In this document: positions 14,200 to 54,348 of the stretch, in pieces
Position numbering within the stretch: the first letter of the stretch is position 1
Layout: each line of letters starts with the position of its first letter
Assembly (NCBI GenBank): GCA_023489335.1
Contig: JAMDCP010000014.1
Coordinates: forward strand, 1 to 64,000
From: Deltaproteobacteria bacterium
Lineage (GTDB): Bacteria > SZUA-79 > Acidulodesulfobacterales > Acidulodesulfobacteraceae
Direction of reading: 5' to 3'
DNA length: 64,000 nt
Notes under the pieces: model-generated
The model's input: the letters and a program-made list of their open reading frames with translations, nothing else
What the model was told of the DNA's origin: nothing
Databases searched by the model: none
Position numbers and translations under genes: made by a program

Positions 14200-15258
14200 A
14201 TGAATAAGACTTTAACGGCGGCTTCTTATCCAAGAATAGGCAAAGAACAGGCGATTGATCTTTTTAAGAATAAAAGCATTCTCGGACTTGGAAAGATGGC
14301 GGATGCGATAAGAAAAGACAAGCATCCCCAAAATGTGGTTACATTTATAATCGATAGGAATATTAACTATACCAATATTTGCATATCTGAGTGTAAATTT
14401 TGCGCTTTTTACAGAAAGCCTCACGATAACGGTTCTTATATACTGACAAAAGATGAAATTTTTGAAAAAATTCAGGAAACAATCGGTTTAGGCGGAACCC
14501 AAATTTTGTTGCAGGGAGGATTAAATCCCAATATTGAATTTGATTATTATTTAAATCTTTTATGTGCAATTAAGGAAAAATTTAATATTCATATACATGC
14601 CTTTTCCCCTCCCGAAATTTTTCACTTAGCGGATGCCAATAATATTACCGTCAAAGAAACTATTCTTCTTTTAAAAGATGCGGGGCTGGATTCCATTCCC
14701 GGCGGCGGCGCTGAAATATTAGTCGATAGGGTGAGAAAAAAGATAAGCCCTAATAAAATAAGCAGCGAAAAATGGCTTGAGGTGATGGAAGAAGCCCATA
14801 ACGCAGGTTTGCATTCATCTGCCACAATGATGTTTGGCACCATAGAAACGGATGAAGAGATTATAGAGCATCTCTTTAAATTACGCAATCTTCAAGATAA
14901 AACAGGCGGCTTCAGGGCATTCATCCCATGGAGTTTTCAAAGCAAACATACAAAATTAAATCCCAGAGGCGTGTATGGACAATATTATCTTAAAGTACTT
15001 GCAATTTCCAGGATAGTCCTCGATAATTTTGACAACATTCAGTCCTCATGGGTCACGCAGGGAGCAAAAATGGGGCAGGTTGCGTTAAGTTTTGGCGCAA
15101 ACGATATGGGTTCGACGATGATAGAAGAAAATGTCGTTAAAGCGGCAGGGACTCAAAATGTTATGGTTGACGAAAAATTTATGGTAAAGCTTATTAAAGA
15201 TGCAGGATTTATTCCCGCCCAGAGATTTAATAGCTATGATATAGTAAAATTTTATTAA
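14200..15258 (+). CDS. mqnC: Cyclic dehypoxanthinyl futalosine synthase MqnC
   Basis: MqnC is a radical SAM enzyme that cyclises dehypoxanthine futalosine in the futalosine route to menaquinone. The 4Fe-4S cysteines are C61, C65 and C68 (CISECKFC). The family-specific parts are IHAFSPPEIFHLA, SIPGGGAEIL, SATMMFGTIET, FRAFIPWSFQ and the GANDMGSTMIEENVV region. These distinguish it from MqnE and from CofH, which has PGTAAEIL and GGTLMEE instead (compare the gene at 52.2-53.3 kb). At 352 residues the length is normal. It appears to be transcribed alone; mqnA, mqnB, mqnD and mqnE are not in the window. Confidence 0.88.
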   Translation: MNKTLTAASYPRIGKEQAIDLFKNKSILGLGKMADAIRKDKHPQNVVTFIIDRNINYTNICISECKFCAFYRKPHDNGSYILTKDEIFEKIQETIGLGGTQILLQGGLNPNIEFDYYLNLLCAIKEKFNIHIHAFSPPEIFHLADANNITVKETILLLKDAGLDSIPGGGAEILVDRVRKKISPNKISSEKWLEVMEEAHNAGLHSSATMMFGTIETDEEIIEHLFKLRNLQDKTGGFRAFIPWSFQSKHTKLNPRGVYGQYYLKVLAISRIVLDNFDNIQSSWVTQGAKMGQVALSFGANDMGSTMIEENVVKAAGTQNVMVDEKFMVKLIKDAGFIPAQRFNSYDIVKFY

Positions 15259-50315: not shown

Positions 50316-51101
50316 TTACTCATTAATTTTCTTTTTAAATATCAGCTCGGCAACTTTTTTATTTAATATCCTATATTGTCCCGAGGGTAAATCCCCGATA
50401 TAAAGCCCGCCGATGCCAACCCTTTTAAGCATCATAATTTTAAGATTGAAAAACTCCAAAAGCCTCCTTATCTCCCTATTCTTTCCATGATTTAAACTTA
50501 TAGATAGAATAAACTTTCCCGATTTTTTATTTACGACTCTGACATCCTGAGGTTTCATTAAACCCGTTTCTTCAAGATTTATTCCTTTTTTTATTTTTTT
50601 TAGAAGTTCATCCGTAAGTTCGCCCTTTACCTCGACTATATAAGACTTAACGACATTAAATTTTGGATGGGTTGCCTTATATGTAAAATCACCGTCGTTG
50701 GTTAGTAAAAGCAAGCCCTCGCTCATAAAATCAAGCCTGCCCACCGGGAATATATGTTTATGGCTTAAAGTCTCCTTTTTAATTAATTCCATTACCGTTT
50801 TAAAACCCGACTCGGATTTTACGGCTGTAATATAGCCCTGAGGCTTGTTTAACATTATGTAAACAGGTGGTTCCGCCTTATAAACGATTTTTTTTCCGTC
50901 AAAGCTTACTTCGTCGCCGGTATTTACAAATGTTGCAAGGTTTTTAACGCTTTTACCGTTTATAATAATCCTGCCTTCTTTTATTATACCGTCAGCTTCC
51001 CTTCTTGAAACGCCGGTTCTTGCCGCAAGAAATTTATTTAATCTTAAACCCTGCTGCATCAAACCGGATTTTTTTACGGTTTTAGGCTTTTTTTCTATCA
51101 A
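50316..51101 (-). CDS. rluB: 23S rRNA pseudouridine synthase, RluB/RsuA type
   Basis: An S4 RNA-binding domain ([22 protein letters not shown]) is followed by the catalytic domain with [20 protein letters not shown], in which Asp is the nucleophile, and a C-terminal [11 protein letters not shown] motif. Length 261 residues fits RluB. The start overlaps thiG by 4 bases (ATGA), so it appears to be translated from the tail of the thiamine operon. In many bacteria it follows scpB; here it faces scpA instead. Choice of RluB over RluE/RsuA is by overall resemblance only. Confidence 0.85.
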
Positions 51102-51904
51102 AATACGATTCCCTCCATTTGCGTCGAGGCTTGTGCATAAAGTTTCATAGGAATGCGGCCGGATAAATACGCAAGCCTGCCCGCTTCTACCCCTTGCTTC
51201 ATTGCAAGCGCCATTTTTACGGGATTATTCGCTCCGGCTATTGCAGTATTAATAAGAATTCCGTCAACGCCGAGTTCCATCGTCTTACAGGCATCGGACG
51301 CCGTCCCGACCCCGGCATCTACTATGACCGGCACGGAAACCGTCTCTTTTATTATTTTGATATTATAAGGATTTCTAATTCCTAAACCGGAACCGATAGG
51401 CGAAGCAAGCGGCATAACAACGGGGCACCCTATATCCTCGAGTTTTTTAGCCAAAACAGGATCGTCCATCATATACGGCATAACCGTAAAACCCTCTTTT
51501 ACCAAGATTTTTGCAGCCTTAATTAACTCCTCGTTATCGGGATAAAGAGTTTTTGCATCGCCGATGACTTCAAGCTTAACTAAGTCTGTCTTAAAGACTT
51601 CAAGCTCCCTTGTAAGCATTAAGGTGTTAACGGCATCCTCCGCTGTATAACACCCTGCCGTGTTCGGCAAAAGCGTAAACCTGTCTAAGTCGATATACGA
51701 CAGCATATTGTCCTTTGCGTTGAAATCGATTCTTCTGACCGCCACTGTTATAATCTCCGCACCAGAGGCAATTGCCGAGTCTTTCATAATTTGAAAATCG
51801 GGATACTTCCCTGTTCCGACTATAAGCCGCGATTTAAATGTATATTTTCCAATCTTTAATCCGTCGTCCATTAAATAGTTATTATTGCCTGCATCATTAT
51901 TCAT
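51098..51904 (-). CDS. thiG: Thiazole synthase ThiG
   Basis: ThiG condenses 1-deoxy-xylulose 5-phosphate, ThiS-thiocarboxylate and dehydroglycine into the thiazole of thiamine. Diagnostic sequence: [25 protein letters not shown], the Schiff-base lysine in [27 protein letters not shown] and [14 protein letters not shown]. Length 268 residues is normal. It follows thiS by 49 bases and precedes rluB in one minus-strand run governed by an upstream TPP riboswitch. No other thi gene (thiF, thiC, thiD or thiE) is in the window. Confidence 0.96.
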
Positions 51905-51953: not shown

Positions 51954-52154
51954 TTAACCGCCGGGCGCAATGCTCACCAAATCCACCTTATCGTCTTCCT
52001 TCAAGATGAACCCTGCATAACCGCTTTTTGGCACGATTTCTTTATTAACTGCAACGGCGGTACTTTTAATATCCAATTTAAAATTATCTATAAGAAGCCT
52101 TACAGATAGATTTTCCGCAACCTCAAATTCTTTTCCGTTAATATATAGCTTCAT
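51954..52154 (-). CDS. thiS: Sulfur carrier protein ThiS
   Basis: A 66-residue ubiquitin-like protein ending in Gly-Gly (SIAPGG), the residue pair that is adenylated and thiocarboxylated before sulfur transfer to ThiG. The start LYINGKEFEVAENLSVRLLI and the NKEIVPKSGY loop are typical. It begins 6 bases after the radical SAM gene stop and is clearly part of the same operon. Confidence 0.93.
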   Translation of the reverse strand: MKLYINGKEFEVAENLSVRLLIDNFKLDIKSTAVAVNKEIVPKSGYAGFILKEDDKVDLVSIAPGG

Positions 52155-52160
52155 ATTATT

Positions 52161-53261
52161 TCAAATAAAATCGTTATTAAAAAATTCAATATAGTTATAT
52201 AATGTATCCCTTCTTACGGGAATTTTTCCGGCTCCGCCGATTAATTTCTTTATTTGTTCTTCAGGCAAATATTCGCCGAATTCCCCTCCTGCGCTTTTGG
52301 TGATATTTTCTTCCATTAAAGTCCCGCCAAAATCGTTAACGCCGCATTCAAGAGATTTTAATGCAGCGGGGACGCCGATTTTAGGCCAGCTTGTCTGAAT
52401 ATTTTTGATATTATCCAGATAAAGCCTTAAAATGGCATAAAACTTAAATACTTTATCCTGCACCAATGTTGAATCTACCTTTTTTCTGAGAGATGTTTTG
52501 TATGAAATAAACGGTAATGTAATAAATTCCGTAAACCCGTTTGTTTCATCCTGAATTTGCCTTATTAAACTCAAATGATAAACTATATCGAGGTTTGATT
52601 CGATATGGCCGAAAAGAATAGTAGCGGAGGTTTTAATACCCATTTTATGGGCCGTTTTTATAATTTCGACCCAGACATCGGTATTTATTTTTTCGGGGCA
52701 GATTTTACCTCTTGTTTCTTGCGCTAAAATCTCCGCCGCAGTTCCGGGCATCGAGTTTAAACCCGATTCAACCAATTTTGAAATAACAAACTCAATCGAC
52801 ATACCGGCAGTTTTTGAAATCTCGAATATCTCCTGCGGTGAAAATGCGTGAATATGTAAATCGGGGAAGTTATCCCTGACGATTTTAATTAGATTAAAGT
52901 AGTAATCCGGCTTTAATTTAGGATTTATGCCGCCCGTTACGCATATTTCATCTATACCTATCTTTTTTCCTTCCGAAATCTTTTCGAGTATCCTATCGTA
53001 ATCCAACAAAAATGCATCTTTAGACCTTTCGGTTCTTTTATATCCGCAGAACTTGCAATTTAAACCGCATATGTTTGTAAAGTTAATGTTCCTATTGACG
53101 ACAAATGATACCATATTGGAATTAATTTTTTGATTTTTTATGTCGGCAATGTGAATAATATCACGCCCTCCCTCTTTTTCTTCCAGTAGGCAAAGAAGTT
53201 CCTCGTCATTGATTCTTTCAAAAGATAAAGCCTTTTCAAGTACGGAATTTAATTTAGCCAT
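52161..53261 (-). CDS. CofH-like radical SAM enzyme in the thiamine operon, candidate dehydroglycine-forming tyrosine lyase
   Basis: About 366 residues; the 4Fe-4S cysteines are C65, C69 and C72 (CGLNCKFC). Motifs point to the CofH branch of the CofH/MqnC/MqnE family: NRNINFTNIC, IHAFSPQEIFE, SMPGTAAEIL, TSATILFGHIES, GVNDFGGTLMEENI and GAGKIPVRRDTLYN. CofH cleaves tyrosine and releases dehydroglycine, as ThiH does. The gene is directly upstream of thiS (6 bases) and thiG, under a TPP riboswitch. A role in supplying dehydroglycine for thiazole is inferred. Starts at 53282 (TTG), 53276 or 53261 are possible; the last fits the family start best. No clear ribosome site. Confidence 0.82.
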   Translation of the reverse strand: MAKLNSVLEKALSFERINDEELLCLLEEKEGGRDIIHIADIKNQKINSNMVSFVVNRNINFTNICGLNCKFCGYKRTERSKDAFLLDYDRILEKISEGKKIGIDEICVTGGINPKLKPDYYFNLIKIVRDNFPDLHIHAFSPQEIFEISKTAGMSIEFVISKLVESGLNSMPGTAAEILAQETRGKICPEKINTDVWVEIIKTAHKMGIKTSATILFGHIESNLDIVYHLSLIRQIQDETNGFTEFITLPFISYKTSLRKKVDSTLVQDKVFKFYAILRLYLDNIKNIQTSWPKIGVPAALKSLECGVNDFGGTLMEENITKSAGGEFGEYLPEEQIKKLIGGAGKIPVRRDTLYNYIEFFNNDFI

Positions 53262-53353
53262 ACATTTGTAGCGCATAGTCAAAGACCATGCTTTATTATC
53301 AAATTATTTAAATAAAATATTTTTAGGAGAATAAGCTTAGCGGCAAAGGAAAG

Positions 53354-53382
53354 AGAAAAACGGCAGTCTTAAACTGCGCCCA
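53354..53382 (-). terminator. Possible riboswitch-controlled terminator
   Basis: Downstream of the TPP aptamer on the minus strand, GCAGT and ACTGC (53363-53377) form a short stem, followed by CCG and a run of five T. A second small hairpin, CGCC/GGCG, overlaps just before it. The arrangement after an aptamer fits transcriptional control, but the stem is short. Confidence 0.35.
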
Positions 53383-53426
53383 TGGCGGTTTATACGCTAA
53401 CAATATCTTAATCTTAACGCTTTTTT

Positions 53427-53551
53427 ACTTCCCTACGCCGGCATTATCCGTATTCAGGTTCAAAGGGTTGCGAGTTAAAGGCTTGTTTGTTATTTAATCT
53501 AACCAAACCTGCCGTAACTCGACTCTCAGCCAGATTATTAACGGCACCCCT
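53427..53551 (-). promoter_or_regulatory. TPP (thiamine pyrophosphate) riboswitch
   Basis: On the minus strand the THI-box elements appear in order: a GGGGTGCC start, GGCTGAGAGT, the ACCCTTTGAACCTG core, CGGATAATGCCGGCGTAGGGAAGT (read as GGATAATGCCGGCG and TAGGGAAG). A variable helix sits between the first and last parts. TPP binding normally switches off the downstream genes. It lies in the roughly 300-base leader of the CofH-like gene and thiSG. Apart from the aptamer and a possible terminator, the leader holds nothing recognisable. Confidence 0.95.
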
Positions 53552-53589
53552 AATTTTAACATTGTTTAAATCTACTTATATATTATAAC

Positions 53590-54348
53590 CTATTTAATAA
53601 CCCCAATCAAGAAATTCTTATGTTTGTTATTATAGACTTTTACGCATGCCACCTTTACGGTTAAAATATCATTTTTCGCCGTTAAAGGAACAAAATAGTA
53701 TTCCAAAAGGACCGATTTTTTAATATGTCCAAATGTTCCGGTTCTTTTATTTATGAAATTTTCAGCCTTATTTTCCGGCATAGTTAAAAAATTAAAATCT
53801 CCCGCATTTTTATGGACAACGGTTAGATTATGAAACAGGTAATATATGTTGCCATGTTTTGTTTTGATAAAATTAATGTTCCTGCGGGTTTTCATCCTAT
53901 TTTTTATAATCTTATCCGACATGTAATATGTTAGATAAAACCCCTGCTTTTTAAAATTATAACTGCTGATGTCGGCCCTGATATATTCTTTAAAATACTT
54001 TACCGAACTTACGAACTTCATTAACTTTTCTAATTTTTGTTTATCCTTATAAAAAAGTTTTTTCCATAAAAACGAATTATACCTGTCATGCATATATTGA
54101 GCAGGATTGACAATCTTTATGTATGTCGTAATATCGTTTTTATTTATCGGCTGGTTTGCGGCTTTTAAATATAGAGCGTAAATAATCGGATCGGAGGCGT
54201 AAACGCCATGGCAGACTCCGGTGTCTGTACCAGCAAAAGCCCTATTATCAAATGCTATACTTAAAATCGAAACATTCAAAACGGCCGTTAAGAATAAAAA
54301 AGCCGCCCAAAACACCATTTCCCTTGTTCTGCCGATTTCTCCTTTCAT
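53590..54348 (-). CDS. Exported protein of unknown function at the end of the secretion locus
   Basis: A 252-residue product with a signal peptide (VFWAAFLFLTAVLNVSILSIAF, probable cleavage after AFA near 39). The mature part is basic, with many Tyr, Lys and Asn residues and one visible Cys early (GVCHGVY). No family was recognised; the second half is probably beta-rich. A strong GGGAGG site precedes the ATG. It is the last gene of the minus-strand cluster, 116 bases from the lytic transglycosylase gene. It may be a periplasmic accessory or an exported substrate of the type IV system; this is inference. Confidence 0.6.
   Translation of the reverse strand: MKGEIGRTREMVFWAAFLFLTAVLNVSILSIAFDNRAFAGTDTGVCHGVYASDPIIYALYLKAANQPINKNDITTYIKIVNPAQYMHDRYNSFLWKKLFYKDKQKLEKLMKFVSSVKYFKEYIRADISSYNFKKQGFYLTYYMSDKIIKNRMKTRRNINFIKTKHGNIYYLFHNLTVVHKNAGDFNFLTMPENKAENFINKRTGTFGHIKKSVLLEYYFVPLTAKNDILTVKVACVKVYNNKHKNFLIGVIK

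Follow-up and report, generated by a model that had tools for sequence, protein, structure and literature searches.

A CofH-type radical SAM gene in a TPP riboswitch-linked thiS-thiG operon: a candidate dehydroglycine supplier for thiamine synthesis

Which enzyme supplies ThiG with dehydroglycine where thiS and thiG are accompanied by a CofH-type radical SAM gene and neither thiH nor thiO is visible? The question arises from an operon on the minus strand (53610-51098) of the DNA analyzed here (referred to as the window, i.e., the whole stretch of 64,000 nucleotides), in which a promoter-like site, a TPP aptamer, a terminator-like hairpin, the CofH-type gene, thiS, and thiG follow one another in this order (Table 1). 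Thiamine, F420, and menaquinone synthesis are three separately studied pathways with related radical SAM chemistry, and the first-pass annotation had suggested that a CofH-family enzyme took over the ThiH step in this operon. Based on comparative genomics, we regard such a takeover as probable (about 0.8): ThiG would receive its dehydroglycine from a CofH-lineage radical SAM enzyme that cleaves tyrosine, in place of ThiH or ThiO. A familiar reaction of an established pathway would then be carried by a different enzyme lineage, and a search of the open-access literature yielded no previous description of a CofH-type enzyme acting in thiamine synthesis.

Operon layout and riboswitch

The first-pass annotation had described a complete THI-box ahead of a radical SAM gene with CofH-type motifs, followed by thiS and thiG. 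All of these elements were recovered: the RF00059 covariance model matches the whole aptamer (full length 1-105, 54.0 bits, E = 5.9e-10), the three genes match TIGR03551, TIGR01683, and PF05690 respectively, and the quoted motifs are present in the sequence. The aptamer score is 0.3 bit below the curated gathering score of RF00059 (54.3), probably due to the long P3 extension; the default Rfam search missed the aptamer, and absence of the riboswitch was ruled out, this being a threshold effect only. Aptamers of the same operon from other genera of the family reach 62-76 bits, above gathering, and 17 of the 19 family genomes searched have a TPP riboswitch ahead of the thi operon, before whichever gene opens it. 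Thiamine pyrophosphate would act through this riboswitch to turn the operon off, probably by transcription termination, with the terminator-like hairpin between aptamer and radical SAM gene as the candidate expression platform. The promoter-like site is weak evidence, as 2.1 such sites are expected by chance in the region.

The open frame of the CofH-type gene extends to a TTG start (53282), which probably makes the protein too long, and the ATG at 53261 best fits the family alignment; residue numbers given below are counted from the TTG. At the other end of the operon, thiG shares its last 4 bases with a pseudouridine synthase gene, and a similar gene also lies 3' of thiG in another genome of the family (G007, L071).

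Table 1. Features of the thi operon and two further genes of the window
Feature	Position	Strand	Evidence
Promoter-like site TTGATT-17-TATAAT, upstream of aptamer	53582..53610	-	consensus scan, 10/12 matches
TPP riboswitch aptamer (THI element), long P3 arm	53413..53561	-	Rfam RF00059
Terminator-like hairpin with U-tract, candidate expression platform	53353..53377 (hairpin 53377-53363)	-	1 found vs 0.3 expected in shuffles
CofH-type radical SAM protein, 366 aa from ATG 53261	52161..53261	-	TIGR03551 410.7 bits (cut-off 374.1), PF19288 CofH_C, PF04055
thiS, sulfur carrier, C-terminal GG	51954..52154	-	TIGR01683 60.3 bits (cut-off 37.45)
thiG, thiazole synthase	51098..51904	-	PF05690 364 bits
Pseudouridine synthase gene	50316-51101	-	
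mqnC	14215-15255	+	

Identity of the CofH-type protein

The protein carries the CxxxCxxC motif (C72, C76, and C79) and consists of a Radical_SAM and a CofH_C domain. It scores above the cut-off of the NCBI CofH model and falls 0.2 bit short of the stricter equivalog NF005609, while it is far from being assigned to ThiH (TIGR02351, 30.9 bits against a cut-off of 380) and below the cut-offs for MqnC (TIGR03699, 369 bits against 428) and MqnE (TIGR03700, 328 bits against 435). BATS, the C-terminal domain of ThiH, was not found in it by Pfam. Its AlphaFold model (pLDDT 93) has MqnE (6xig, TM 0.91) as the nearest solved fold, with ThiH (7pd1) much further away (TM 0.73, 13% identity). The protein shares with ThiH the radical SAM barrel and a place in an operon with thiS-thiG and differs from it in sequence and in its C-terminal end; it resembles CofH (or the C-terminal half of FbiC) in sequence family, in the residues that set CofH apart from MqnC/MqnE, and in fold.

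As a member of the TIGR00423 subfamily with a fold closest to MqnE, the protein might instead be a paralog from the menaquinone (futalosine) pathway, or a radical SAM enzyme that feeds thiazole synthesis from another substrate (e.g., a different amino acid), and the AU test does not reject its grouping with MqnC/MqnE apart from CofH (p = 0.38). We consider this highly improbable given the distance to both Mqn cut-offs and the presence of a true MqnC (499 bits, cut-off 428) and a true MqnE (463 bits, cut-off 435) in the same genome, so that the menaquinone roles are already filled (this mqnC lies in the window, 37 kb from the thi operon). Further, its residues are of the CofH type and not of the Mqn type: all seven positions that mark CofH versus MqnC/MqnE are kept (F68, C114, T181, E252, K301, L322, and G336).

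In the tree, the CofH-type proteins of the family group together (100/100) on a long stem. They fall with CofH where MqnC/MqnE branch off (100/98) but stand apart from the CofG-linked sequences. This does not cleanly match the firm placement within F420-linked CofH that the first-pass annotation had named as counter-evidence, the family being a separate long-stem lineage. A quick CofG-rooted tree puts the family clade inside archaeal-type CofH, and a monophyletic CofH that excludes the family clade is not rejected by the AU test (p = 0.384). With more genomes included, a stand-alone CofH without CofG nearby (L284/L308, G070:C15:281898-282956) becomes the sister of the family clade (97/74). The genome that encodes it also has a thiS-thiG-thiE-thiC operon (L307), and no thiH was found in the 12 kb around that thiS-thiG pair. 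The tree points to a CofH-like origin of the family's protein, either from within F420-linked CofH or from beside it (AU p = 0.38), and recruitment of the enzyme from F420 biology, as considered in the first-pass annotation, is plausible.

Conservation in the family and the missing suppliers

The arrangement seen in the window recurs throughout its bacterial family. An ortholog of the CofH-type protein (66-86% identity) is encoded in 27 of 30 family genomes, and thiG is present in exactly the same 27, with G001, G021, and G027 lacking both. The CofH-type gene adjoins the thiS-thiG pair in 26 of these 27, in one of two gene orders (cofH-thiS-thiG or thiS-thiG-cofH); the exception is G007, where it lies about 37 kb from thiS-thiG on the same contig. 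The first-pass annotation saw no thiH or thiO, and indeed neither was found above its family cut-off in the window or the rest of the source genome (a draft, 92% complete), nor was ThiH found in any of the 30 family genomes or ThiO (TIGR02352) in any of the 19 tested. The rest of the thiamine pathway is at least partly there, as thiC and a thiE-thiC pair. A second ThiC-like gene (L272, G000:C1:196022-197257) directly follows cobalamin genes (cobS- and cobB-like) and is kept in nearly all family genomes searched; it scores above the ThiC cut-off and below the BzaB cut-off, and its product is perhaps a BzaF-type enzyme that makes benzimidazole, the lower ligand of B12.

The grouping of the family clade with CofH in the tree and the score above the CofH model cut-off would also be expected of an ordinary CofH that makes the 4-hydroxybenzyl-diaminouracil precursor of FO/F420, with its location in the thi operon being incidental. 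However, among the 19 family genomes tested no CofG was found above cut-off (the best match of the CofG model in the source genome is the CofH-like protein itself) and CofD had no match at all, though the CofH-type gene itself is conserved. Known F420 synthesis is therefore excluded, and the full F420 pathway that the first-pass annotation had raised as a counter-indication did not turn up. Control by TPP and the strict linkage to thiG also argue against an ordinary CofH, as do six positions that are near-invariant in F420-linked CofH but carry other, fixed residues in the family (R50N, F81Y, A105G, Q116T, T219S, and V300P), and we give this explanation very little weight. Diaminouracil is the second substrate normally held by CofH, and the pattern of kept and changed residues is compatible with an enzyme that still handles tyrosine but treats the second substrate differently. 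Pro300 is also found in the thi-linked CofH of an unrelated genome (G085, discussed below) and in a thaumarchaeal CofH (L084:468-1445) whose contig ends too early to show its upstream context; since the latter has it too, Pro300 was dropped as a strict marker of thi function.

The takeover of the ThiH step by the CofH-lineage enzyme is thus supported by the HMM assignment together with the absence of ThiH (0/30) and of ThiO, CofG, and CofD (0/19 each above cut-off), the co-occurrence with thiG (27/27), the linkage to the TPP riboswitch, and the occupied MqnC and MqnE slots. The ThiG partner adds to this picture. ThiGs encoded next to ThiH form a clade of their own (99, 24/28 rows), and the ThiG of the window falls outside it, among those tied to ThiO or to no local supplier. 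Hence, it is probable that no ThiH came along with this ThiG and that the family never had ThiH beside it. Instead, the CofH-type enzyme may have replaced ThiO, with which it would share the role of dehydroglycine supply and the type of ThiG partner, although ThiO is an unrelated, oxygen-dependent flavoenzyme.

Proposed chemistry and occurrence outside the family

In CofH, the 5'-deoxyadenosyl radical that the enzyme generates is reported to take a hydrogen from the amine of tyrosine, which then fragments and leaves a p-hydroxybenzyl radical (PMC8498797). The point of attack is the same in ThiH, which passes dehydroglycine to ThiG, and HydG is likewise a tyrosine lyase making dehydroglycine (PMC9046217), although it is distant in sequence and feeds hydrogenase maturation. 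As CofH and ThiH attack the same atom, the replacement would need no new reaction, only release of the by-product to ThiG; no documentation of a CofH releasing dehydroglycine to another protein was found in the literature consulted. We infer the following sequence of steps: the CofH-type enzyme would use the 5'-deoxyadenosyl radical to cleave the Calpha-Cbeta bond of L-tyrosine and would hand the resulting dehydroglycine (2-iminoacetate) to ThiG, which would combine it with DXP and ThiS-bound sulfur into thiazole phosphate. The 4-hydroxybenzyl half may leave as p-cresol or enter an adduct.

Adduct formation is central to a dual use of the enzyme, in which the diaminouracil adduct would still be made (and used elsewhere or wasted) and ThiG would draw on the dehydroglycine by-product. 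Such an arrangement agrees with the CofH-specific residues being kept and with tyrosine fragmenting on CofH before the radical adds to diaminouracil (PMC8498797), but the six changed positions suggest altered contacts with the second substrate, and there is no CofG to take up the adduct. Dual use is therefore rated unlikely, if somewhat less so than either of the alternatives discussed above. If the preferred reading of a dedicated tyrosine lyase is true, a CofH regulated and inherited with thiazole synthesis would be a natural swap of tyrosine lyases, a gap in the reconstruction of vitamin B1 synthesis would be closed, and HMM annotation as "F420 CofH" could mislead.

Two surveys looked beyond the family. 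Among the 80 nearest CofH-type loci in named genomes, the five from the window's family all have thiS-thiG, and none of the other 75 does, many of these lying directly 3' of a CofG-like gene. Among 93 thiG loci from other families, the neighbors of thiG include ThiH (24), a ThiO-type oxidase (12), a HydG-type protein (3), and CofH (1). Numerous thiG loci elsewhere lack both ThiH and ThiO in their vicinity, so that the family is not alone in having no known supplier close to thiG, and Geobacter species without thiH have been described (PMC545781).

The single CofH case (L223/L278, G085:C328:332-3055) has the order thiG-thiE-cofH and belongs to a genome unrelated to the window's family, this genome being the only one of its phylum in the comparison set. 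This genome also carries a separate CofG-CofH fusion (L295, C202), and ThiH had no match in it. Its thi-linked CofH falls in the bacterial CofH group of the tree, away from the window's clade, and would therefore be an independent case; recruitment of CofH to thiamine synthesis may thus have recurred. We tentatively suggest, as a possibility somewhat short of even odds, that the CofH lineage is a third, recurrent dehydroglycine supplier for thiamine, fixed in the family studied here, independent in at least one other lineage (G085), and perhaps represented by unlinked stand-alone CofH in anaerobes whose thiG lacks a known supplier.

An MqnE near thiG in one locus (L191) was dismissed as a link, being a single case on the opposite strand and 2.7 kb off. 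In three families, HydG-type proteins are encoded no more than a few kb from thiG (L195, L209, and L261), with those of L195 and L261 scoring above the HydG cut-off.
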